A stretch of 64,000 nt of DNA from Cryomorphaceae bacterium (GTDB lineage Bacteria > Bacteroidota > Bacteroidia > Flavobacteriales > ECT2AJA-044): positions 682,001 to 746,000 of the forward strand of contig CP059070.1 of assembly GCA_017798125.1 (NCBI GenBank), given 5' to 3'. The stretch's first letter is position 1. Each line of letters starts with the position of its first letter. The notes beneath the pieces are model-generated. The model did no database searches. It worked only from the letters and a program-made list of their open reading frames with translations, and was not told the DNA's origin. This document shows, piece after piece, positions 48,883 to 59,125 of the stretch. The translations under genes and the position numbers were made by a program.

Positions 48883-48952
48883 ACGGCTCCAACCTTTCTG
48901 TACAAAGGGATACGAGGGCAAGGGATACTTTGGTTGGTGCAAAACAAAAAAA

Positions 48953-48971
48953 CCCACGCGAAGTGCGTGGG
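48953..48971 (-). terminator. Original tRNA-Cys terminator, now 10 kb from its tRNA
   Basis: CCCACGC and GCGTGGG pair around GAAGT; on the minus strand a run of T follows. It directly abuts the left copy of the tRNA 3' end, exactly where a tRNA terminator belongs. Confidence 0.8.
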
Positions 48972-48974
48972 TTT

Positions 48975-48990
48975 TGAGGTCCCGACCGGA
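48975..48990. repeat. Left attachment repeat (attL)
   Basis: TGAGGTCCCGACCGGA is identical to 59053-59068 and corresponds to the last 14 nt of tRNA-Cys plus two following bases. Confidence 0.88.
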
Positions 48991-49180
48991 CTTCAACTTA
49001 CAAAGACGCCTCTTAACCCAAGTCTTATCACTCTCACATGAACACTAATTATTTGAGCTATAGGGGGGTATTTAGGCAAAACATTATAGTTCGATGGGGT
49101 TGGTTACACTTGCAAGAGATTGTAAATATGTTGTGCACTTGCTGTGCAAAGTATATCTTTAATCTGTACTTTTCAATACT

Positions 49181-50467
49181 ATGGCGTCTGTAAAATTTTT
49201 CCCACGGGGCAAAAATTCAAACATCTACGTACGGCTGTCGATAAGCCGAGGAAATGCTCCCATGGCTAACACCGGACTAGTAGTTGAGCCCTCGAGGTGG
49301 AGCAAGGCCAAAGGCTTGCCTCTTGGCCGAAACGCATTTGATAAAGAGCTCTTATTAAAGCTCAAAGGACTAGAGGCTCATCTCATCGAGAATTACAATC
49401 GCTCACATGCTCAAGGAGAACGGTTCAATACGGCTTGGTTAAAAGAGGTCATAAACTCCTTCTTTAATCGCAAAGAAGAGGTTCAACTTGACTATTTAAC
49501 AGAGTATGGGCGACACTACACCAATAAAAACCGGAAGGCTAATGAGGAGACTAAAAAGGACTATCTCGATTGTATTCAGAGGCTTGAAGGTTACGAAGGC
49601 CATTTAGGTAAACGTCTATTGATGCACGAAATCAATGTTGCCTTTCAAGACGACTATACTGAATACCTGTCTGACCACGCAAACCTAGCGGATAGTACTA
49701 TCCAAAAAGAGCTTTCGAGGATTAGATCCTTTGGGGCGCACGCATACAAACATGGATTCGATGTTGGGATTGGGCTTAGGTCTATTAAACCCGAAAGCGT
49801 TAAAACCTACAACACCTATCTAACTTTTGAAGACCTGGGCTTGGTTGAAGTTTTAGACCTCAGCACAAAGCCAGTACATGAAGACGTTAGGGACTGGCTA
49901 ATCATAGGTTGTTACACTGGGCAAAGGATAAGTGATCTGTTCCGAATGAAGAAGCGAATGATAAAGGAAATCGATGGGTACAAGTACATTGAGCTTACGC
50001 AAAAGAAAAACTATGAAAATAGAGGTGTTAGGGTAAGAATTCCGATACATCCTTGGGTTAAAGAAGTTCTCAAAAGACGAGGTGACTTTCCGGGTTTATG
50101 GAGCTCTTCAAATGGAAGTAACGCTACTATTTTTAACCGTTATGTAAAAGAGGTTTGCAAACTGGCAGGTATCAATGAACTAACTGAAGGAGCTTTACGC
50201 AACCCTAGCACTGGCAAGTATGAGAAAGGAGAGTACGAGAAATGGCGTCTCATTAGCTCACATACATGCCGCAGATCTTTTGCAACAAACTTTTACGGTC
50301 AACCAGGATACACCACTCCACTCTTAATGAGTATTACGGGGCATAGAAAGGAGGAGACTTTTCTCAAGTATATCAAGAAGGCACCCATCGACTACTCGAA
50401 ACAGCTCGCTGAACTATGGCAAAATGAAGGGCCTCGAGGAGAGGATATTGTGACCATATACGACTAA
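49181..50467 (+). CDS. Tyrosine recombinase (integrase)
   Basis: The 428-residue protein has an Arm-DNA-binding start (KFFPRGKNSNIYVRLSISRGN), a SAM-like core-binding domain (~110-210) and a catalytic domain. The catalytic Arg is in CYTGQRISDLFRM (~248), His-x-x-Arg in SHTCRRSFATNF (~360), His in TGHRKEETF (~387) and the nucleophile Tyr in FLKYIKKA (~396). It lies ~190 bp inside the left att repeat and should catalyse integration at tRNA-Cys. This is the Bacteroidota phage/ICE integrase subfamily. Confidence 0.95.
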   Translation: MASVKFFPRGKNSNIYVRLSISRGNAPMANTGLVVEPSRWSKAKGLPLGRNAFDKELLLKLKGLEAHLIENYNRSHAQGERFNTAWLKEVINSFFNRKEEVQLDYLTEYGRHYTNKNRKANEETKKDYLDCIQRLEGYEGHLGKRLLMHEINVAFQDDYTEYLSDHANLADSTIQKELSRIRSFGAHAYKHGFDVGIGLRSIKPESVKTYNTYLTFEDLGLVEVLDLSTKPVHEDVRDWLIIGCYTGQRISDLFRMKKRMIKEIDGYKYIELTQKKNYENRGVRVRIPIHPWVKEVLKRRGDFPGLWSSSNGSNATIFNRYVKEVCKLAGINELTEGALRNPSTGKYEKGEYEKWRLISSHTCRRSFATNFYGQPGYTTPLLMSITGHRKEETFLKYIKKAPIDYSKQLAELWQNEGPRGEDIVTIYD

Positions 50468-50481
50468 ATCTATAGCCGTTA

Positions 50482-51351
50482 ATGAAAAAACACATTTCCC
50501 GATTAAAAGAGGCTCTCAGAGGAATGCCTGACCAAACAAGAATACGGACTCTTGTAGAGATTTGCGCTGAGGAATTAACCCCCTATGAACTATGGCAAGT
50601 TATTGATGAGGTAATAAGGTACTATGCCAATGGTCCGAGGTACGCGGAAGGCCCTAACCAAGAGATTCGCCTTTGGTGGTCGATGCAGAGTGTGTTTTCT
50701 CCCCTTTTCTTTAGTCTTAGTGCTTCAACAATAACTGAAGACTTTGAAAGGAAATATTCATCGGTGACCAACTCGACCGGGAAACAGCTAATTAGTTCTG
50801 AAGAAAATCGCAATGCTCTTTCGACCTATTTTTTGAATCAATGGAGGGTTGAAGTCGAAAGCGAACTAGATTCTTACCCAAAAGAAGATCGCTTTTTATG
50901 GAAGGTCTTCTTTGATTCATTAGAGGGGCTCAACGAAGCCTTACGATTAGAGGTGAGAGAACTCAGTGAAATTTCAAATAACCGGGGAAAAGCATCAGAT
51001 ACAAATAATGCTAGAACAGGGGAATACAAAACACATGAAGGCGGGTATGGGCAAATAATTATTTCCCCAAAGGGCCTAGAGATTCTAGAATTCGTCATCC
51101 CTCGCTTGGGTAGTAAGAAGATTGACATCCATGTAGTCTATCGAGAGCTGGAGTATCAAGGTGAGTTAAAAAAGGGCACCCCGCATCGTGACTTCGTAGA
51201 GTATTTGGCCTTCCATTGGGGAAATATCATAGAGGATATAAACCCCGAATTTAAGATACCTACCTACGAAACCCTTAAAAACCGTTCGAAGCTAGCTGTA
51301 GAGCGAGTTAAAGGTCTTATCGAAAAAGCACCGCATAGTCCCTCCCCCTAA
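50482..51351 (+). CDS. Unknown protein of the integrated element
   Basis: The 289-residue protein is not recognised. The N-terminus is helical (MKKHISRLKEALRGMPDQTR, LVEICAEELTPYELWQVIDEV). The middle is charged and low in known motifs, and the C-terminus (ISPKGLEILEFVIPRLG, VERVKGLIEKAPHS) may hold a helical domain. It starts 14 bp after the integrase stop, so it is probably co-transcribed. A role in regulation or stabilisation of the element is possible, without evidence. Confidence 0.6.
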   Translation: MKKHISRLKEALRGMPDQTRIRTLVEICAEELTPYELWQVIDEVIRYYANGPRYAEGPNQEIRLWWSMQSVFSPLFFSLSASTITEDFERKYSSVTNSTGKQLISSEENRNALSTYFLNQWRVEVESELDSYPKEDRFLWKVFFDSLEGLNEALRLEVRELSEISNNRGKASDTNNARTGEYKTHEGGYGQIIISPKGLEILEFVIPRLGSKKIDIHVVYRELEYQGELKKGTPHRDFVEYLAFHWGNIIEDINPEFKIPTYETLKNRSKLAVERVKGLIEKAPHSPSP

Positions 51352-51425
51352 TTGGTGAACTTCCTCTCCCTGGAAGGAGAGTAATCTGCTCGAGTTTTGC
51401 CTTATAACCAATAACTGTAAGCAAA

Positions 51426-51716
51426 ATGAGCAACCAAGTAACACTTGTACAACTTGACCCTGAAGCCTTTAAAAAAGAGGTTCTTGCGGGCTTCCGTAAA
51501 GAGGTTGAAACGCTACGTAAAGAGTTTCAGCCAAAAGAGCCTCAAGTTTTCCTTACTCGAAATGAGGTCGCGGAATTATTCAAGATCAACCTTTCAACCG
51601 TTCATCATTGGACCAAGTCAGGCCGTCTGATGGCCTACGGAATTGGGGGCCGGGTATACTATAAACGGAAGGAGGTAGAGGCCCTAGCATTACCATTAAA
51701 GGTAAACAATGATTGA
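51426..51716 (+). CDS. AlpA/excisionase-like HTH protein
   Basis: The 96-residue protein has residues ~1-35 as a Lys/Glu-rich helix and residues ~38-92 as a MerR/HTH_17-type winged helix: FLTRNEVAELFKINLSTVHHWTKSGRLMAYGIGGRVYYKRKEVEAL. Such proteins act as excisionases or as AlpA-type activators of excision in integrative elements. It overlaps the replication gene by 8 bp. A 6-bp hairpin (CTCTCC/GGAGAG, 51364-51381) lies upstream with no T run. Confidence 0.82.
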   Translation: MSNQVTLVQLDPEAFKKEVLAGFRKEVETLRKEFQPKEPQVFLTRNEVAELFKINLSTVHHWTKSGRLMAYGIGGRVYYKRKEVEALALPLKVNND

Positions 51717-53148
51717 TTTCGTAAAGCTCGAAATTACTGGATCACGGCGAGATCGCATACCAGAACGCCTTAATATGGGAGGTATTATTGCGACGGATGG
51801 TGACGGTCTAGTAATTTCGGAGAAGCTATATCTAGAGGAAAACGGACTCGAGATCATTGTTTCACCTAGCGGGCGAACCATTCTAAAGGGAAGTGTCCAC
51901 AAATACGGACATGACGGAGTTAATTATTCGGATCTGCGGATTGGCGAGGCCGAGGCAATATTGTGCTCGATAGCTAACTGGTTGGGGGTGAAACTTTCCG
52001 ATATGCGCATTATCCAAGCCGAGATTGGCTTGAATATTGAACCTCCTGCCGAGTCGAAGAGAATTGTGAGAAACCTTCTGTTCCACAAGACAAAGCTCCC
52101 AAGACGTTACGAAAGTGGCAAAAAGGAAACCCGTCCTATCGAGTCAAAAGAATTCCAGTACAGCCACTTCTCCGTAAAAGCCTATGATAAAGGGGCTCAA
52201 TACCGAAGGGAATACAATATAAATAATGAAATCTTCCGACATGAAATACGGTTCGAGTATTCTGAACTAAAGAAGTATGGAATCGAACATACTGAGGACC
52301 TCATCGAAGCCTTGAGCTTGAATAATTGCTCCCTGCCCAAACTGACAAATTATTTGATTTCTCAATGGGACCACTATCTTTTTTACGACTGGACAGTGCT
52401 TAATATGGTGCCTGGAGCCGAGAGATACGCTTCGATAGACTTTTGGTCCGAATTAGGGCGGGACAACCGTGTTTACCACAAAACCCGACTAAATCAAACA
52501 ATACGGCAAACTGAAAACAATCTAAAAGACTCAATCCGTCGGTTACTTGACGCAAAAGCAAGAGAATTATCACGCCCAATTTCAACGTTTGAAGTATTTG
52601 GATTAAATCAGTCCGATACTACGCAAACTGAAGCTTTAGGTAAACCTTCTTTTTGCGTAGTACACCCTGACCTGTACTGTCCTGTTACAGGTGTCAAAAT
52701 TTCCATGCAAGTTCAAGGGACGATTCTGCTCACTGTATTTGGCCTTGAGTGGTACGAAAAAAACGAGCCTGAAATTTTCAAGAAGATTGCTGATCATCTA
52801 GAAAATATTGATCCGCTTAAAATCAATATTAAGAGGGCTAGAACTGTCATGTCCATGGAGATTAGGATTAGAAGGTATTTTAAAAAAACTGGTGCTAGAA
52901 GACTCTTTTGTTCATTAACCGGTTTACCCAGACCTCCAAGAGAGCACTATTGGACGGACTACAGTGAAGACGTCTTATCCAGGATGGACCTTAAATGGTA
53001 CAAAGAGCACGACCCCGAAACCTTCCAAGAATTAATAAGGGTCTTTCCAGCTCGCAACCTACTAAGTGACCCGGCGTGTCCAAGGAGGATCCATGAAGCA
53101 ATGAAACGAAGAAAGAAGTCGCTTTTATCATCACGAAAAACTAGATAA
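51709..53148 (+). CDS. Phage/plasmid replication initiator-like protein
   Basis: The 479-residue protein has an N-terminal part (MIDFVKLEITGS, FSVKAYDKGAQYRREYNI, FRHEIRFEYSELKKYG) that resembles Phage_CRI/gene II-type initiators of filamentous phages and small Bacteroidota plasmids. This would nick a replication origin; the catalytic Tyr is not identified. The C-terminal ~170 residues carry two similar units, FCVVHPDLYCPVTGV...GLEWYEKNEPEIFKKI and RLFCSLTGLPRPP...DLKWYKEHDPETFQEL. It could instead be a relaxase-type protein. Autonomous replication of the excised circle is inferred. Confidence 0.62.
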   Translation: MIDFVKLEITGSRRDRIPERLNMGGIIATDGDGLVISEKLYLEENGLEIIVSPSGRTILKGSVHKYGHDGVNYSDLRIGEAEAILCSIANWLGVKLSDMRIIQAEIGLNIEPPAESKRIVRNLLFHKTKLPRRYESGKKETRPIESKEFQYSHFSVKAYDKGAQYRREYNINNEIFRHEIRFEYSELKKYGIEHTEDLIEALSLNNCSLPKLTNYLISQWDHYLFYDWTVLNMVPGAERYASIDFWSELGRDNRVYHKTRLNQTIRQTENNLKDSIRRLLDAKARELSRPISTFEVFGLNQSDTTQTEALGKPSFCVVHPDLYCPVTGVKISMQVQGTILLTVFGLEWYEKNEPEIFKKIADHLENIDPLKINIKRARTVMSMEIRIRRYFKKTGARRLFCSLTGLPRPPREHYWTDYSEDVLSRMDLKWYKEHDPETFQELIRVFPARNLLSDPACPRRIHEAMKRRKKSLLSSRKTR

Positions 53149-53156
53149 ACAACCAT

Positions 53157-53519
53157 ATGAGCCCGCCAAAAGGAAACAGTAACGCCGAAAAATACTCTCT
53201 TGAATACGCACGGTCGATTTCAAAAAAAGCCCTTGATATATGTGGCCCAGACTGCTACTACCTTTCTCAAATAGCCGAAGAATGCGGCGTCTACAGACAA
53301 CTGTTTAACTACTTATTGAAGAAGTTCGAATACGACGACGAAGTATTTTTAAATCTTAAAAGATTAAAAAATAGGTGTGAGGCAATCATCCTTCAAGAGA
53401 CCGAAAGCGGTCGTTTAAATCAACGCGTTGGGATATTCTTGCTCAAGTCTGCCCACGGTTTTCGAACAGCCTCTAATTATCCTAAATCAACTCACAATGA
53501 TCAACTTTCAGTGAAATGA
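53157..53519 (+). CDS. Small-terminase (gp3-type)-like HTH protein
   Basis: The 120-residue protein has an HTH (YYLSQIAEECGVYRQLFNYLLKKF, ~38-60) followed by a helix pair and the tail RVGIFLLKSAHGFRT (~90-105). This matches the pattern of phage DNA-packaging gp3-type small terminases (...sGk...fiLKn.hGw). It may steer packaging of the element into a helper phage capsid, as TerS proteins do in phage satellites; a plain DNA-binding role is the alternative. It lies 8 bp after the initiator gene and overlaps the next gene by 4 bp. Confidence 0.5.
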   Translation: MSPPKGNSNAEKYSLEYARSISKKALDICGPDCYYLSQIAEECGVYRQLFNYLLKKFEYDDEVFLNLKRLKNRCEAIILQETESGRLNQRVGIFLLKSAHGFRTASNYPKSTHNDQLSVK

Positions 53520-53842
53520 AGTTTTGTTTTTTCCGCTATAAAAAGAAAGCCCCGGCGGTCCTATCCCCTAGAAAGCAACTTAAAAATGTCTTGAAAATGA
53601 GTAGCTCATCACCACGAATTTCGAAAACGAGTCTTCGCGATTTAGGATTTAAAAAAATCAATGAGACTGACTATAAATCACCCGTTGGTGATTACTACTA
53701 CGATACATACCTCAAAGGAGTATATATAAACGGCATGAATGGCGAGCCTCAATTCATTTTGGATCGGGATATTTCCGATTTATTTGACCTGATACACGTT
53801 CTCGAAGTCTTGAACGGGACTAATCTAGATCTACGCTTTTGA
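53516..53842 (+). CDS. Small unknown protein of the integrated element
   Basis: The 108-residue protein starts MKFCFFRYKKKAPAVLSPRKQ, basic at the N-terminus. The rest (SKTSLRDLGFKKINETDYKS, QFILDRDISDLFDLIHVLEVLNGT) resembles a small alpha/beta domain with no family recognised. Its ATG overlaps the small-terminase-like gene by 4 bp. It ends 29 bp from the convergent Nudix gene; an imperfect inverted repeat (ACGGT...ACCGT) in the gap may terminate both. Confidence 0.5.
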   Translation: MKFCFFRYKKKAPAVLSPRKQLKNVLKMSSSSPRISKTSLRDLGFKKINETDYKSPVGDYYYDTYLKGVYINGMNGEPQFILDRDISDLFDLIHVLEVLNGTNLDLRF

Positions 53843-53871
53843 AACGGTTCTAGCCATTATCGAGACCGTAT

Positions 53872-54288
53872 TCATAGTATTTCATCAAAAGAATTGACAA
53901 ACTTTTGATCTCCCTTTGTGAATGAATAAAGTGGAAACTTACTAGGTTCCACCCAAATAGCGTTAACGTGTTCTTGAAGCCGCATGGAGCCTGGTCTTGA
54001 GCAATAGCAAAGAATGAATTTTAATTGGTAGATGAATTCTCCGACTTGGACTTCGTCACTAAATACTTCTTGTCTTCCGCGAACAGATAATCCCAACTCC
54101 TCGAACACTTCCCTCTCAGCAGTTTTCAGAAGCTGTTCATTTTGCCTTCTTTTCCCGCCAGGAAACTCCCATTTTCCTCTATCTCTTCCATCTCCCTTTT
54201 GACAAATAAGAACCCTTGACCATTCGTCTTGGATGACAGCGCAGGCGACGTCAATTCTTATCATAAAACCTCCTTCTATGCTTTTCAA
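53872..54288 (-). CDS. Nudix hydrolase (MutT-like)
   Basis: The 138-residue protein has the Nudix box GGKRRQNEQLLKTAEREVFEELGL at ~44-67 (G-x5-E-x7-REVFEELGL). It begins MKSIEGGFMIRIDVACAVIQDE, or from the second Met (MIRIDVACAVI). MutT-type enzymes hydrolyse (modified) nucleoside triphosphates such as 8-oxo-dGTP or 5-methyl-dCTP. It is the last gene of the four-gene operon 56509-53872 and overlaps the HNH gene by 38 bp, so the enzyme probably works with the nucleases, e.g. by removing a modified nucleotide. Substrate unknown. Confidence 0.88.
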   Translation of the reverse strand: MKSIEGGFMIRIDVACAVIQDEWSRVLICQKGDGRDRGKWEFPGGKRRQNEQLLKTAEREVFEELGLSVRGRQEVFSDEVQVGEFIYQLKFILCYCSRPGSMRLQEHVNAIWVEPSKFPLYSFTKGDQKFVNSFDEIL

Positions 54289-55219
54289 GATATGGTCTCG
54301 CCTTAGAAGGTACTTTTATTTTAATGTCCGAATGAACTCCTAATGCCTTTAAGTCTTCTTGTTCCGTTTTATCCGATAAAAGAATCTGACCTTCATTGCT
54401 AAATGATATTAAGTGACTGTCGAATAAGGCGTCAATATTAGGAGATAGAAGAATGCCATTGTTCACATCTAGGCGTTCGTTTTCCGTACTTTCTGACCAA
54501 GGCACAATGTGCGAAGCGATTAAAAGCCTTATATCTCCACATCCTGTGACCGGACATTTGCCATCCCAGGAGTCTATTACTTGCTGACGGAAGTACCCTT
54601 GACCAACTCTTGAAGTAACTAGTCCTTTCCTTTCCGTAGTATTTGGCTTTGTATACCTTTTAACACGAGCTACGGATATCCTATTTGATTTATCGATCTG
54701 AGTTTTTGAAAGTTTGTTAGCTTTTTCTGGCCTCCAAAGATAAATCCTCATTAGTGCCTTTGATTCCGGCGTCTCTACGTAGTCAATACTTCGAAAAACC
54801 ATATGAACCGGTCTAGATGTGCCTTTTTCATACTCTATGAACTCTAGTTCTCCACAATATATAAATGGTTGAGTTTTGCTTTTGACCCGCCTTCTTTCTC
54901 TAGCAAAAAGATAGACTCGTCTTTGCCTGGAAAATATCTCCTTGATTAATGGAGTTTCTGGATGTTGAGTAGTTTGAGAATCCCAATGAAAAAACTCACC
55001 CTGGAAAAAGTCATCAAAATGAAACCTCTCTTCCTTCCCTTCCTTTTCCAAGTCGACAAAAAGAAAGGTGTTCTTCGTTCCCGGAAGAGTATATATTCCC
55101 TCTCGAACTAAGGCGATATTTGGTTCCGAAAAGATCTGGGCTAAGTCTTTTTTAGAGTAGCCCGATCCAAGTATAACTCCGTTCATCCTATCCATTCCGT
55201 TTTCGCCTATGAAATTCAT
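54251..55219 (-). CDS. DUF3427-like / HNH endonuclease
   Basis: The 322-residue protein has an N-terminal ~190 residues resembling DUF3427 (PUA-like): FVDLEKEGKEERFHFDD and FFHWDSQTTQHPETPLIKEI, then VYLFARERRRVK and ELEFIEYEKGTSRPVH. A C-terminal HNH_2-type domain (~215-300) has KCPVTGCGDIRLLIASHIVPW and LLSPNIDALFDSHLISFSN. In that last motif the usual His is an Asn, which may alter metal binding. It is predicted to cut DNA after reading base or backbone chemistry; this is inference. It overlaps the gene on each side (38 bp and 32 bp). Confidence 0.72.
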   Translation of the reverse strand: MNFIGENGMDRMNGVILGSGYSKKDLAQIFSEPNIALVREGIYTLPGTKNTFLFVDLEKEGKEERFHFDDFFQGEFFHWDSQTTQHPETPLIKEIFSRQRRVYLFARERRRVKSKTQPFIYCGELEFIEYEKGTSRPVHMVFRSIDYVETPESKALMRIYLWRPEKANKLSKTQIDKSNRISVARVKRYTKPNTTERKGLVTSRVGQGYFRQQVIDSWDGKCPVTGCGDIRLLIASHIVPWSESTENERLDVNNGILLSPNIDALFDSHLISFSNEGQILLSDKTEQEDLKALGVHSDIKIKVPSKARPYLEKHRRRFYDKN

Positions 55220-56168
55220 AATGCCATTTGAAATACCGCCTTGTTTCGTTTTTGAAATAACTACACTCGTTACCGGCCAACGCTTCTATTTCGGATTTAA
55301 GTTCTGGTGAAGAAATAGATGGGTAAAAAGCCTTAAATACTCCTGAGTCGTCCACAACTAGATATCCTTTTTCGAACAACTCATCACATCCAAACTTGCA
55401 CATTGGAAAAACAACATTCGAATCAAGCTTCTCTTCCTGAGAACACTCAGATCGCTTCTTAATATGCGCAGTAACTAAAAAAGAAATTGGATACTCTTTG
55501 GAGCAGCAAGCGCATATGCTAACGGTCGATTTACCAAAGAGTATCTTCTTCAAGAAAGACTGTTCCCTTCTACGCTTAGAAATGATCTCGGCTTCGCTAG
55601 TTTCAAGAGATTCTAGCTTCATTATTAGAGCTCTATACTCGTCCTCTGAAATTTCATCAGAAAACACCTCGCTTTGAAGACTATAGTGTTCCACAAAAGG
55701 ATTACTGCGTTCAGCAGCTAGGACATTAAAAGCTTGAACAACATAGTTTTCCTTATAGCCTACCAGTTTGTTAAAAGAAGCATAAGAAATTCGTATACGC
55801 TCTAATTCTTCAAGAAAATACATGTATTCCCAGGTTGCACCATCTGGCAAGCTTCCCCAAAAACTCTTTGCTGCATCTTGATTCCTGGTCTTTGCGACAA
55901 CTGTCGCGCTAGCAAAAAAGAACTTGTTCTTAGCAAAGAGTACCTTGTCTCCTATTGATATTTTTCTCCATTTCGAGGGGTTATTGCCTTTGGGTGTAAC
56001 TCCCCAAAACATAGCCGATCCGCTAGGATATATTCTTTCCAAACCCTCCATTAAGTCAGAATCAAAAAAGGAATTGAATCCCTTCAATGGAACCCTGTTC
56101 TCGACAGTTTTGAGAAAGTGGGCTAAAGAATCTGAGTTCGCACAAGGCTGGAGTACGATGTTGCTCAT
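55188..56168 (-). CDS. EVE/PUA-like domain HNH endonuclease
   Basis: The 326-residue protein has residues ~45-160 (WRKISIGDKVLFAKNKFFFASATV, then VVAKTRNQDAAKSFWG and ISYASFNKLVGYKENYVVQAFNVL) that look like an EVE/PUA-type reader domain of modified bases. Residues ~215-290 form an HNH-type zinc-bound nuclease: ICACCSKEYPISFLVTAHIKKRSE then FPMCKFGCDELFEKGYLVVD. Reader-HNH pairs are known among modification-dependent restriction enzymes. It overlaps the MazG-like gene by 4 bp and the DUF3427-HNH gene by 32 bp. Confidence 0.7.
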   Translation of the reverse strand: MSNIVLQPCANSDSLAHFLKTVENRVPLKGFNSFFDSDLMEGLERIYPSGSAMFWGVTPKGNNPSKWRKISIGDKVLFAKNKFFFASATVVAKTRNQDAAKSFWGSLPDGATWEYMYFLEELERIRISYASFNKLVGYKENYVVQAFNVLAAERSNPFVEHYSLQSEVFSDEISEDEYRALIMKLESLETSEAEIISKRRREQSFLKKILFGKSTVSICACCSKEYPISFLVTAHIKKRSECSQEEKLDSNVVFPMCKFGCDELFEKGYLVVDDSGVFKAFYPSISSPELKSEIEALAGNECSYFKNETRRYFKWHYEFHRRKRNG

Positions 56169-56509
56169 CGTTTATTATACTTTGTCGCATTTCCTTTTGA
56201 CAAAGACACGGGATATTTTTGGGCATTCAATTTAATCTTGTCTTTGGCAGCTTCTAAAAGGTCAACTTCTAGTTTATCCGATAAGCGAATTAGGTAAAGA
56301 AAAATGTCCGCAATCTCTTGCTTGCAGTGATCGTAGTCTTTTGGACTTATTCTCTCTTTTAATGATTCCTCTTCGGTTAGCCACTGAAATATTTCAACAA
56401 GCTCTCCAGTCTCTGCTGAAAGTGCCATTACAAGATTTTTTGGATTATGATATTTGTCCCATTCTCTATCAAGAGCGAACTTTCTCAGTTCAATAATAAG
56501 TTCTTCCAT
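56165..56509 (-). CDS. MazG-like nucleotide pyrophosphohydrolase
   Basis: The 114-residue all-helical protein has the MazG/dCTPP1 signature: LVMALSAETGELVEIFQWLTEEE (~26-48, E-x2-E) and KQEIADIFLYLIRLSDKLEVDLL (~65-87, E-x2-D). Such proteins hydrolyse NTPs or modified dNTPs to monophosphates and pyrophosphate. It is the first gene of the operon. TAGATTTTG (56514-56522 complement), a near -7 box, lies only a few bases before its ATG. As a defence partner it could strip phage-modified nucleotides or deplete the pool; not proven. Confidence 0.85.
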   Translation of the reverse strand: MEELIIELRKFALDREWDKYHNPKNLVMALSAETGELVEIFQWLTEEESLKERISPKDYDHCKQEIADIFLYLIRLSDKLEVDLLEAAKDKIKLNAQKYPVSLSKGNATKYNKR

Positions 56510-56691
56510 CTATCAAAATCTATTTAAATCAGCCTGCATTGTAGTAATAGCTGAAATTAAGGAATTCTGGTTCTCTCAATATCTCCTTTCTGAATTGAGT
56601 AAACATGACAATACCTTCCTAAAGGTAAAGCGCTAGTGTACAGGATATTAGGGTCAATCGAGCCGGGCCAACGTGTTGTTGATGCGCAGCA
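56510..56691. other. Gap between the two putative defence operons
   Basis: These 182 bp hold the promoter of the MazG-led operon (TAGATTTTG near 56514) and the 3' end of the CoiA-led operon. No clear terminator stem with T run was found. Confidence 0.45.
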
Positions 56692-57459
56692 CTATAGGCC
56701 CTTTGTAAAAGTTCGCCACTGCTCCCTAAGGACCTCTAGTTGATTCATAAACCTGAGGTACCTATGTTCCCATTCGCCATTAATAACCGCTTTGATAAAA
56801 GCATTTCGCGAAAACTCGGCGACAACGAAATATCTCCCTATAAAGCCAGGGAACAAGCAATAGAGGAATTTTCTCGGATCAGAATGATCTTCCAAGTCTC
56901 TTTGACCTAGAAAATCAAAGATTACGGGAACTTTTGATTGAGTCCAAGATTCTGGAAAAGCTTCCGAACAAAAGTCTACTCTAAACACGTGAGGCCTTCC
57001 TAGGTTAATGAATTCTTCCCTGGCCTTGAGAAACTTCGGGTAGTCCCTCTTAAGCCGAGTCCCATCTATCACCCATATCATATTATTGTAGAATTCTTCC
57101 CTTGCTATTCTTTCTTCTTCCTCAATCCTAGAGTGTTGAAACTCTAAGATTAGCCCTTTACTAGTTGCCACATCTGCTCGGGAATATCCTTTTTCCGAAT
57201 TCTCTTTAAACGTAACCTCCTGCCATTCCGAAGGGAATAGATCCTTCCACATCCTATGCCAAGCAGTCTCGTTTTCTTTTGAAGAGTCACATGCTCGATG
57301 AACAAGATGAGCCCAATGCCATATTCTTTGTTTGCCACAACGGGCAACTACCTCCATACTACAAACAGGACATGTCGCCTTTAGCCCTTTTATAGCCTCA
57401 ACTCTCTTACCGTCGGCAATTGCATACTTCATCTCGTAAAGGTGAAATAGTTTATTCAC
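56692..57459 (-). CDS. CoiA-like zinc ribbon/nuclease protein
   Basis: 255 residues (start 57459, or the second Met 57432: MKYAIADGKRVEAI). The N-terminus holds a zinc ribbon CPVCSMEVVARCGKQRIWHWAHL (~30-55). The middle has the PD-(D/E)XK-like core YSRADVATSKGLILEFQHSRIEEEE (~90-115, with Asp, Glu and Gln), as in competence protein CoiA. In this context, next to unknown and membrane proteins, it may be a restriction-type nuclease rather than a competence factor. It starts 5 bp after the small membrane protein gene. Confidence 0.75.
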   Translation of the reverse strand: MNKLFHLYEMKYAIADGKRVEAIKGLKATCPVCSMEVVARCGKQRIWHWAHLVHRACDSSKENETAWHRMWKDLFPSEWQEVTFKENSEKGYSRADVATSKGLILEFQHSRIEEEERIAREEFYNNMIWVIDGTRLKRDYPKFLKAREEFINLGRPHVFRVDFCSEAFPESWTQSKVPVIFDFLGQRDLEDHSDPRKFLYCLFPGFIGRYFVVAEFSRNAFIKAVINGEWEHRYLRFMNQLEVLREQWRTFTKGL

Positions 57460-57464
57460 CCATG

Positions 57465-57719
57465 TTACTCGTCTTCTGTATCTGAAGGGAAGTAGTGCCT
57501 AAATACCTGAAAAACTGTACCCCCCATTAAGACCTCGATTGCGCCGTATACTATTTGTTTACCCAGGGAGTCTTCATGGATCAAATTGTACAAAACGATA
57601 AAGAAAGCAACGATTGCAGCAAGCACCAAAACTCCTTTCAAAAACAGATTCCAAAGCAAGACATATACTTTGGCTTGATCTTCTGTTATTCTATTGTTTT
57701 TGTTTGAGGCTTGTGTCAC
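57465..57719 (-). CDS. Small two-TM protein in the CoiA operon
   Basis: The 84-residue protein has two membrane helices (~15-40, YVLLWNLFLKGVLVLAAIVAFFIVLYNL, and ~52-68, QIVYGAIEVLMGGTVFQVFRHYF) with charged ends. Small membrane proteins beside nucleases in mobile elements are often defence effectors, but no specific family is recognised. Its ATG overlaps the upstream zinc-ribbon gene by 4 bp. Confidence 0.65.
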   Translation of the reverse strand: MTQASNKNNRITEDQAKVYVLLWNLFLKGVLVLAAIVAFFIVLYNLIHEDSLGKQIVYGAIEVLMGGTVFQVFRHYFPSDTEDE

Positions 57720-58090
57720 TTCTTATTCTTTCTAAAACGATAGAATTCCCGAATACGAAGCTGATTTCGGTTGAACGAATAGACGTCACGTTCTAAATGA
57801 AGACATATATCACAATCTAATCTTTCGGGAATATCTCCCTCTTTTTTGAAATGATCTATCATTCTCCCACAACTTGGGCACTCGACTCCTACACGTTTAT
57901 CAAAATACCCTTCTCTAACTGCCATCTCGCAAACCAGTTTAGCTAGTCTAGTCGGCCAGTTAAAGAAGCTACGCACGTTTTCAACATATATCCTCTCTGG
58001 ATCTGTTCTTAGAATAAGCTCTCTCTTACTCTGAATAACCTCTCCCAAAAAAGAAGATTCAATTAGATTGAAGAATCGATAGAATGACAT
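57716..58090 (-). CDS. Zinc-ribbon protein in the CoiA operon
   Basis: 124 residues. Two CxxC pairs (CPSCGRMIDHFKKE and RLDCDICLHLE, ~70-98) suggest a bound zinc. The N-terminus is helical with hydrophobic and charged residues. No family recognised. It overlaps the first gene of the operon by 32 bp and the next by 4 bp. Confidence 0.62.
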   Translation of the reverse strand: MSFYRFFNLIESSFLGEVIQSKRELILRTDPERIYVENVRSFFNWPTRLAKLVCEMAVREGYFDKRVGVECPSCGRMIDHFKKEGDIPERLDCDICLHLERDVYSFNRNQLRIREFYRFRKNKK

Positions 58091-58910
58091 TGGTTATTTG
58101 ATTAGCAGTTTTTGGATACAAGATGAAGGATACTTTTCCATTTGATGGATCAACTGTGAAATGATCGGGCATCTCATCATCATCAACAAGATACTTAAAT
58201 ATCATTTTGTCTAATGGCCTGGTAACCATGCTAGCGTAATCAGCAGGGTATTGTTCTTTAAAAGTAAAGCCCTCGTCCATTGCTTCTGTAGCCATAGAAC
58301 GGTCTTTCTTCCATTTTGCATACCGAGAATCAATAATATCGCGATTCCATAAGTCTTTGACTCCTCTGTTAATATCGGTTACAATAGGTGTCCCAAAAGC
58401 ACCAAGTACTCTTTGTATAATTTCCGTTTCTTCTAAATCTTTTTCAACATGAACGACTTCGGTATTCCCCTGAAAATATTTGCGGAGACTTCGCTCCAAA
58501 ATTGTCATAAAAACAATCATTTGATCGCCTACTAAGTGGATTCGAAATGGTTGACGAAAAACAATATTATGACGGCCAAATGGTTGAATTGTTGTCGCTG
58601 TATAAGTGACTTCAGCATAACCTGTAATCCTCCTAACCCCATCATTCTCACGATCTGAAAATATCGTGAACGGGATATTCCGAGAATCCACTTGCCTCCA
58701 TCTTGTCTGTCGAACACTAAAGATATGACAATGCGTCTTTGTCCATTCTAAGTTGCTTAACACATTGGCTAAAACTACTGCGTTGGCGTTATTCCTAACT
58801 ACTTGGTTCAGGACTGCAGTGGCAGCCCCCGTTTCATCGAAGACGTCCTTAACTACTTTAATTGGCAATACACTTAGCAGTCTTTTAAGAATGTCGTCTT
58901 CAGTGTTCAT
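58059..58910 (-). CDS. Unknown first gene of the CoiA operon
   Basis: The 283-residue protein is not recognised. The central region (EVTYTATTIQPFGRHNIVFRQPFRIHLVGDQMIVFMTILERSLRKYF) looks like a beta-rich domain followed by helices. The end (DHFTVDPSNGKVSFILYPKTANQITNVILSIL) is also structured. No signal peptide or TM. As the first gene of a four-gene unit with membrane and nuclease members it may be a sensor or scaffold; this is speculation. Confidence 0.6.
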   Translation of the reverse strand: MNTEDDILKRLLSVLPIKVVKDVFDETGAATAVLNQVVRNNANAVVLANVLSNLEWTKTHCHIFSVRQTRWRQVDSRNIPFTIFSDRENDGVRRITGYAEVTYTATTIQPFGRHNIVFRQPFRIHLVGDQMIVFMTILERSLRKYFQGNTEVVHVEKDLEETEIIQRVLGAFGTPIVTDINRGVKDLWNRDIIDSRYAKWKKDRSMATEAMDEGFTFKEQYPADYASMVTRPLDKMIFKYLVDDDEMPDHFTVDPSNGKVSFILYPKTANQITNVILSILQSN

Positions 58911-59003
58911 ATGGACAAGTTAGGTGGTTATATACCGTAAAAGTAATTAATCCTAAAGGATATATAATGACGAGTTTGTTGTGCAAATATTGCGCACAAA
59001 AAA

Positions 59004-59037
59004 AGCCCAACAACGCTATATTCAACATTGTCAGGCT
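59004..59037. terminator. Bidirectional terminator at the element's right end, now serving tRNA-Cys
   Basis: AGCCCAACAACG (59004-59015) and CATTGTCAGGCT (59026-59037) form a 12-bp stem with G-U pairs, flanked by A-rich and T-rich runs. On the minus strand it follows tRNA-Cys within about 20 bp, replacing the tRNA's displaced original terminator. Confidence 0.7.
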
Positions 59038-59052
59038 TTTACTAAAAGAAAC

Positions 59053-59068
59053 TGAGGTCCCGACCGGA
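59053..59068. repeat. Right attachment repeat (attR)
   Basis: TGAGGTCCCGACCGGA, identical to 48975-48990, lies in the 3' end of the intact tRNA-Cys gene. Confidence 0.88.
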
Positions 59069-59125
59069 TTCGAACCGGTGTACGAGCTTTTGCAGAGCTC
59101 TGCCTAGCCGCTCGGCCACAGGACC
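59055..59125 (-). tRNA. tRNA-Cys (GCA)
   Basis: A 71-nt cloverleaf on the minus strand: acceptor GGTCCTG / CGGGACC, anticodon stem GAGCT/AGCTC around CTGCAAA (anticodon GCA), T arm ACCGG-TTCGAAT-CCGGT, discriminator U73 as usual for Cys. CCA is not encoded. It is the integration target of the element. Confidence 0.96.

Follow-up and report, generated by a model that had tools for sequence, protein, structure and literature searches.

The window, i.e., the whole stretch of 64,000 nucleotides analyzed here, contains a bounded island at a tRNA-Cys gene that carries its own integrase, an HTH_17 excisionase-type protein, a CRI-type replication initiator and a phage-type small terminase subunit (TerS). 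With a probability of about 0.78, this island is an integrated phage satellite whose plan is similar to that of the phage-inducible chromosomal islands (PICIs). Since it combines a packaging gene and its own int, xis and rep with no capsid genes, it probably spreads inside the particles of an infecting phage. The initial annotation had proposed a candidate phage satellite of PICI layout, and this proposal is favored by a real TerS, a CRI-type Rep, defined island limits and the PICI-like plan; the likeness to the named PICI families is one of plan.

A bounded island at tRNA-Cys

The island comprises 10,094 bp (48975-59068) between two copies of an exact 16-bp direct repeat, TGAGGTCCCGACCGGA. 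The left copy (attL, 48975-48990) is a fragment of the tRNA-Cys 3' end, and the right copy (attR, 59053-59068) lies within the 3' end of the tRNA-Cys gene itself (59054-59125, minus strand). The element extends beyond the gene block first described (49181-53842), and its 10.09 kb agree with the earlier estimate of ~10 kb. The G+C content is 0.37-0.46 inside the island (about 0.41) and 0.50-0.55 outside (about 0.52). A TGTTGTGCA-type repeat near the left end (49129-49150) has a second copy near the right end (at 58977), and the pair is a possible integrase arm or Xis site. Additionally, terminator-like hairpins flank both att repeats on the tRNA-downstream side (48945-48975 and 58990-59052); of these, the inner hairpin on the right is similar to what follows tRNA-Cys in the only congener, whereas the left one is not. 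A search of this congener for an empty attachment site showed none, its contig stopping 70 bp away from the tRNA-Cys match. Exactly this island is known in one copy.

The right-going genes, all on the plus strand, include in one direction the integrase, AlpA/Xis-like HTH, replication and TerS-like genes that had been read from this DNA at the outset. The integrase is a tyrosine recombinase of 428 aa (49181-50467; PF13102/PF00589, phrog_1/216), with matches to Phage_int_SAM_5 (4e-10) and Phage_integrase (2e-8) in Pfam and to phrog_1 (4e-26) in PHROGs. It is followed by a 289-aa protein, left unnamed by the initial annotation and with no family assigned (50482-51351), which has no match in Pfam or NCBIfam, no usable one in PHROGs and no relative in 148 genomes; this variable slot between int and the HTH_17 gene holds other proteins in other members of the island family described below. 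The HTH_17 (AlpA/excisionase-like) DNA-binding protein of 96 aa (51426-51716) matches PF12728 (8.5e-12) and the excisionase family phrog_66 (3.6e-9), and we infer that it acts as the master regulator in the PICI sense. Its gene (xis) overlaps rep by 8 bp, rep is separated from terS by 8 bp, and terS in turn overlaps by 4 bp the gene of a 108-aa protein (p108, 53516-53842), a candidate packaging accessory for which the standard HMM libraries (Pfam, PHROGs, NCBIfam) gave no usable match. In agreement with the absence of capsid, tail and conjugation genes claimed initially, profile searches matched no such family in any island protein. Likewise, the island contains neither a terminase large subunit (TerL) nor a portal gene, no repressor or capsid-size gene was recognized in it, and inspection of its ORFs and profile matches found no divergent pair of regulator genes.

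The other half of the island is a left-going cargo operon, entirely on the minus strand. It encodes a Nudix hydrolase (53872-54288; PADLOC PDC-S07), a DUF3427 + HNH_2 endonuclease (54251-55219; PF11907, 1.2e-12; PF13391, 1.5e-14; PADLOC HNH, 2e-26), a second HNH-type nuclease candidate with an N-terminal part that is EVE/PUA-like by eye (55188-56168; phrog_14240, 1.8e-63), a MazG-like nucleotide pyrophosphohydrolase (56165-56509; PF12643, 2.3e-11), a CoiA-like nuclease-domain protein (56692-57459; PF25164, 6.9e-9; PF06054, 6.3e-5) and three proteins of 84, 124 and 283 aa with no family assigned (57465-58910). The two HNH-type genes, which together span 54251-56168, overlap each other and lie beside those of Nudix and MazG. 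The HNH part of the DUF3427-HNH_2 protein matches PDB 6yex (E = 3e-21), which we take to be VcaM4I, and the second nuclease matches this entry weakly (0.0099). VcaM4I is an EVE-HNH enzyme that performs modification-dependent restriction (PMC7897488). Together with Nudix and MazG, the two nucleases form a candidate modification-dependent restriction cassette, and phages with modified DNA are a plausible target of the cargo operon.

The small terminase and the replication initiator

Judging from homology and gene position, which carry the claim, the 120-aa protein (53157-53519, plus strand) is a bona fide phage-type TerS. Although it matched no TerS profile in Pfam, PHROGs or NCBIfam, a tblastn search against 50,697 phage records retrieved Tenacibaculum phage JQ (34% identity, 95% coverage, E = 1e-16) and Olleya phage Harreka_1 (30%, E = 4e-5), in both of which the homologue is the gene directly upstream of the annotated large subunit. 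These two homologues likewise match no PHROGs profile despite lying beside TerL, and thus the profile libraries appear to lack this TerS family. An alignment of the three sequences retrieved 23 viral contigs, some of them near-duplicates, nearly all of which have a TerL-size ORF directly 3' of the terS homologue; most of these ORFs are TerL by BLAST and the remainder show a Walker-A-like start by eye, the exceptions being L055, with a 62-aa ORF in between, and L058, whose contig ends inside the next ORF. The identity of the window TerS to its phage and viral-contig relatives is 23-45% over most of its length. Because the phage relatives adjoin TerL on its upstream side, the 120-aa protein is a real TerS, and the plasmid regulator considered initially as an alternative is rejected on the same ground; the TerS-like label thus stands on phage homologues directly before TerL and not on curated TerS profiles. 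The predicted structure (pLDDT 74) consists of five helices, beginning with short ones and closing with a long helical hairpin, and structure comparison gave Sf6 TerS as the top chain at a level (VIA-align Z 6.7, Foldseek E 2) that lies in the background range of helical proteins. The TerL partners of this one TerS family differ, belonging to phrog_38 in JQ (L038:6149-8087) and to phrog_2 in Harreka_1 (L039:5977-7645); a reshuffling of TerS and TerL among marine flavophages is suggested.

The preceding gene encodes the replication initiator, a protein of 479 aa (Rep, 51709-53148, plus strand) which gave no above-threshold match in Pfam (including the gathering score of PF05144) or NCBIfam and no usable one in PHROGs; among 17 Rep relatives, one weakly matches Phage_CRI (E 0.037) and one weakly matches Rep_trans. 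When the Rep alignment was compared by hhalign with an alignment of five Bacteroidota proteins that are bona fide members of PF05144, the match reached a probability of 97.9% (E = 3.5e-13, 206 columns; 0.2% for the TerS control), and therefore the N-terminal part of Rep is, by profile-profile comparison, a distant CRI-type (filamentous-phage G2P-type) rolling-circle initiator. The proposed check against Phage_CRI is in this way borne out, at a level below Pfam's cut-off. This homology with the Phage_CRI/G2P initiators of Inoviridae and plasmid-like elements covers the N-terminal ~220 aa, whereas Rep differs from them in its sub-threshold Pfam score, its extra C-terminal domain and its location in an integrated tRNA island. 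No relative of the Rep core was found in the viral-contig, phage or plasmid collections searched. A structure model of Rep from a two-row alignment reached pLDDT 35 and was discarded. Between the core and the C-terminal domain, rep contains an imperfect hairpin with 22-nt arms and a 2-nt loop (52617-52662), which is a candidate nick or origin hairpin; several members of the Rep family have a hairpin near the 3' end of rep, with no common position or sequence among them.

The most serious rival to the satellite reading is an integrative mobilizable element, in which the CRI-type protein would double as a relaxase and nick an oriT, a conjugative element would move the island, and TerS would be incidental. 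MOBT relaxases do derive from Rep_trans initiators (PMC11389934), the two weakly matching Rep relatives mentioned above point the same way, and many family members have no recognizable TerS. However, neither the 479-aa protein, for which a relaxase had been named as the alternative, nor any other island protein matches a recognized relaxase, MobC or coupling protein family, and unrelated phage TerS genes occupy the same position in two family members (see below). We consider this explanation unlikely for the island in the window; family members without TerS may be mobilizable elements that use Rep as a relaxase.

Related islands across the order

Relatives of Rep were found in 16 of 148 genomes by a single-sequence search and, by profile, in 51 of 395 genomes of the order, the own genome included. 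The family survey covered 57 loci, i.e., the window and 56 others, in which the usual order is int, one or more variable genes, HTH_17 and rep; behind rep comes unrelated cargo, restriction-modification genes for example. A direct repeat of at least 15 bp joins the integrase side to the far end in 20 of the 36 loci where an integrase could be identified upstream (a reversed-sequence control gave a match in one locus only, L103). The repeat-bounded islands measure 5.3-17.4 kb, and many of the repeats resemble ssrA or tRNA ends, with ssrA confirmed for L020 and L118. The first of these two is a minimal island of 5.3 kb (L020:5768-11027) that holds little more than int, a 325-aa gene, HTH_17, a 133-aa gene and rep, a size similar to that of the PICMIs discussed below. 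Two records of ~15 kb with related integrases, MT835951 and OY726032, lack this rep.

The content of the slot after rep varies among family members. Most have no recognizable TerS, so the family as a whole may move by more than one route. In an island of another genus (L023 + L118; ~13.3 kb in ssrA, 15-bp repeat), the slot holds a 131-aa protein that is 47% identical to gp060 of Cellulophaga phage phi10:1, encoded there directly before TerL, and in all five viral contigs that encode relatives of this protein, the match is immediately followed by a TerL-like gene. The profile of the window TerS does not match the 131-aa protein; two unrelated TerS at one slot would be hard to explain unless they are used in packaging. 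A further locus (L031:6789-10600; genome G014) has a phrog_34910 small gene, a 120-aa gene and TerL (Terminase_3) directly after rep, and no portal or capsid gene was seen near this TerL. From the unrelated TerS of the window and L023 and the TerL of L031, we infer that packaging genes were acquired at the post-rep slot more than once. In L085, L104 and L086, rep is followed by TerS-like HTH genes, and L093 has a 94-aa gene whose phage relative lies ~1.3 kb before TerL; these cases are suggestive only. Large genes are also found after rep, encoding 665 and 658 aa in L095 and L099, and in L025 (7290-9161) a protein that matches phrog_33803 (1.6e-113) and the virion structural family phrog_23570 (1e-12).

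The same survey bears on a second rival, a prophage in decay whose late genes are gone and of which int, xis, rep and terS are left. Such a remnant would account for a genuine phage terS and for the single known copy of exactly this island, but every gene is an intact reading frame and the genes are tightly coupled, many other bounded islands carry the core, again with no structural genes and with either another TerS or no TerS, and the Rep core is not found among the phages and viral contigs searched. Additionally, apart from two marginal fragments within large ORFs, the window TerS family was found in none of the other 394 of the 395 genomes of the order, and so not as a prophage; the remnant is thus very improbable. 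The same holds for a defense island moved only by its integrase, with the help of natural transformation or generalized transduction, in which the TerS-like protein now serves as a regulator or packaging inhibitor: although the cargo looks anti-phage and a lone TerS could poison the packaging of an infecting phage, an initiator in one operon with terS would be useless to a purely integrative island, and the TerS slot is recurrent (two family members).

Known satellites, a probable helper and implications

PICIs combine an integrase, a replication module and a master regulator with no structural or lytic genes, measure typically ~12-15 kb, carry TerS in some cases and occupy att sites that are never used by prophages (PMC6092414). 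The island has the integrase, replication and regulator genes of this plan and lacks structural genes. Like the Gram-negative PICIs EcCICFT073 and PmCI172 (PMC6092414), it has int, an AlpA-type regulator and a replication module, is integrated between repeats and carries accessory cargo, no structural or lytic genes and a TerS, as do some PICI members; unlike them, it has a Bacteroidota host and a CRI-type initiator and is 10.1 kb long. With the SaPI/Gram-positive PICIs it shares an own TerS, which redirects packaging in pac-type SaPI, whereas it has no divergent Stl/Rpr repressor pair and no recognized capsid-morphogenesis genes. The PICMIs of Vibrionaceae, proven satellites of virulent phages, are defined by int, AlpA (PF05930/PF12728) and a primase (DUF3987/DUF5906) and lie at fis (PMC10803314). 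The island resembles them in its order of int, small gene, alpA (for which PF12728 is allowed) and replication gene, its small size, its defense cargo and its presumed virulent helper; it has the integrase and PF12728 protein of their definition but not the primase, lies at tRNA-Cys instead of fis and carries its own TerS. On present evidence, the island thus appears PICI/PICMI-like in its working, and we do not file it as a member of either group.

In JQ, Harreka_1 and the viral contigs TerL follows TerS, whereas the island lacks TerL. Searches of the own genome for two TerL families gave no match for phrog_38 and, for phrog_2, only a PhoH-type protein that was rejected as TerL, and no helper phage was found in this genome. 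Since free phages carry the TerS family and the other 394 genomes do not, a virulent helper is suggested, probably a Caudoviricetes phage related to JQ/Harreka_1. Infection by this helper would switch on the xis-rep-terS-p108 operon, upon which Xis would turn the integrase to excision at the 16-bp repeats and Rep would nick the circle, leading to rolling-circle replication and concatemers. The island TerS would then bind a site on the island DNA and hand this DNA to the helper TerL, helper procapsids would be filled with it, and the resulting particles would deliver the island to new cells for integration at tRNA-Cys, while the left-going cargo operon would probably restrict competing phages with modified DNA.

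Phage satellites influence how bacteria resist phages and exchange genes. The named satellite families in the literature surveyed come from other phyla, and no paper on phage satellites of Bacteroidota was found in the open-access library searched, within which the earlier statement that such satellites are little described in this phylum holds. The island provides a testable Bacteroidota case, with a TerS but no TerL and a shortlist of helpers (JQ/Harreka-type). The two same-core islands with unrelated TerS suggest that helpers are switched by module exchange. As a tentative extension, to which we give slightly less than even odds, the int-x-HTH_17-CRI-rep islands could represent an undescribed and abundant satellite family of Bacteroidota, present in about 1/8 of the sampled genomes of the order, that replicates by rolling circle, changes helper by exchanging TerS modules taken from different virulent phages and carries restriction/defense cargo between cells. 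The family-wide int-x-HTH_17-rep core could serve as a search model.
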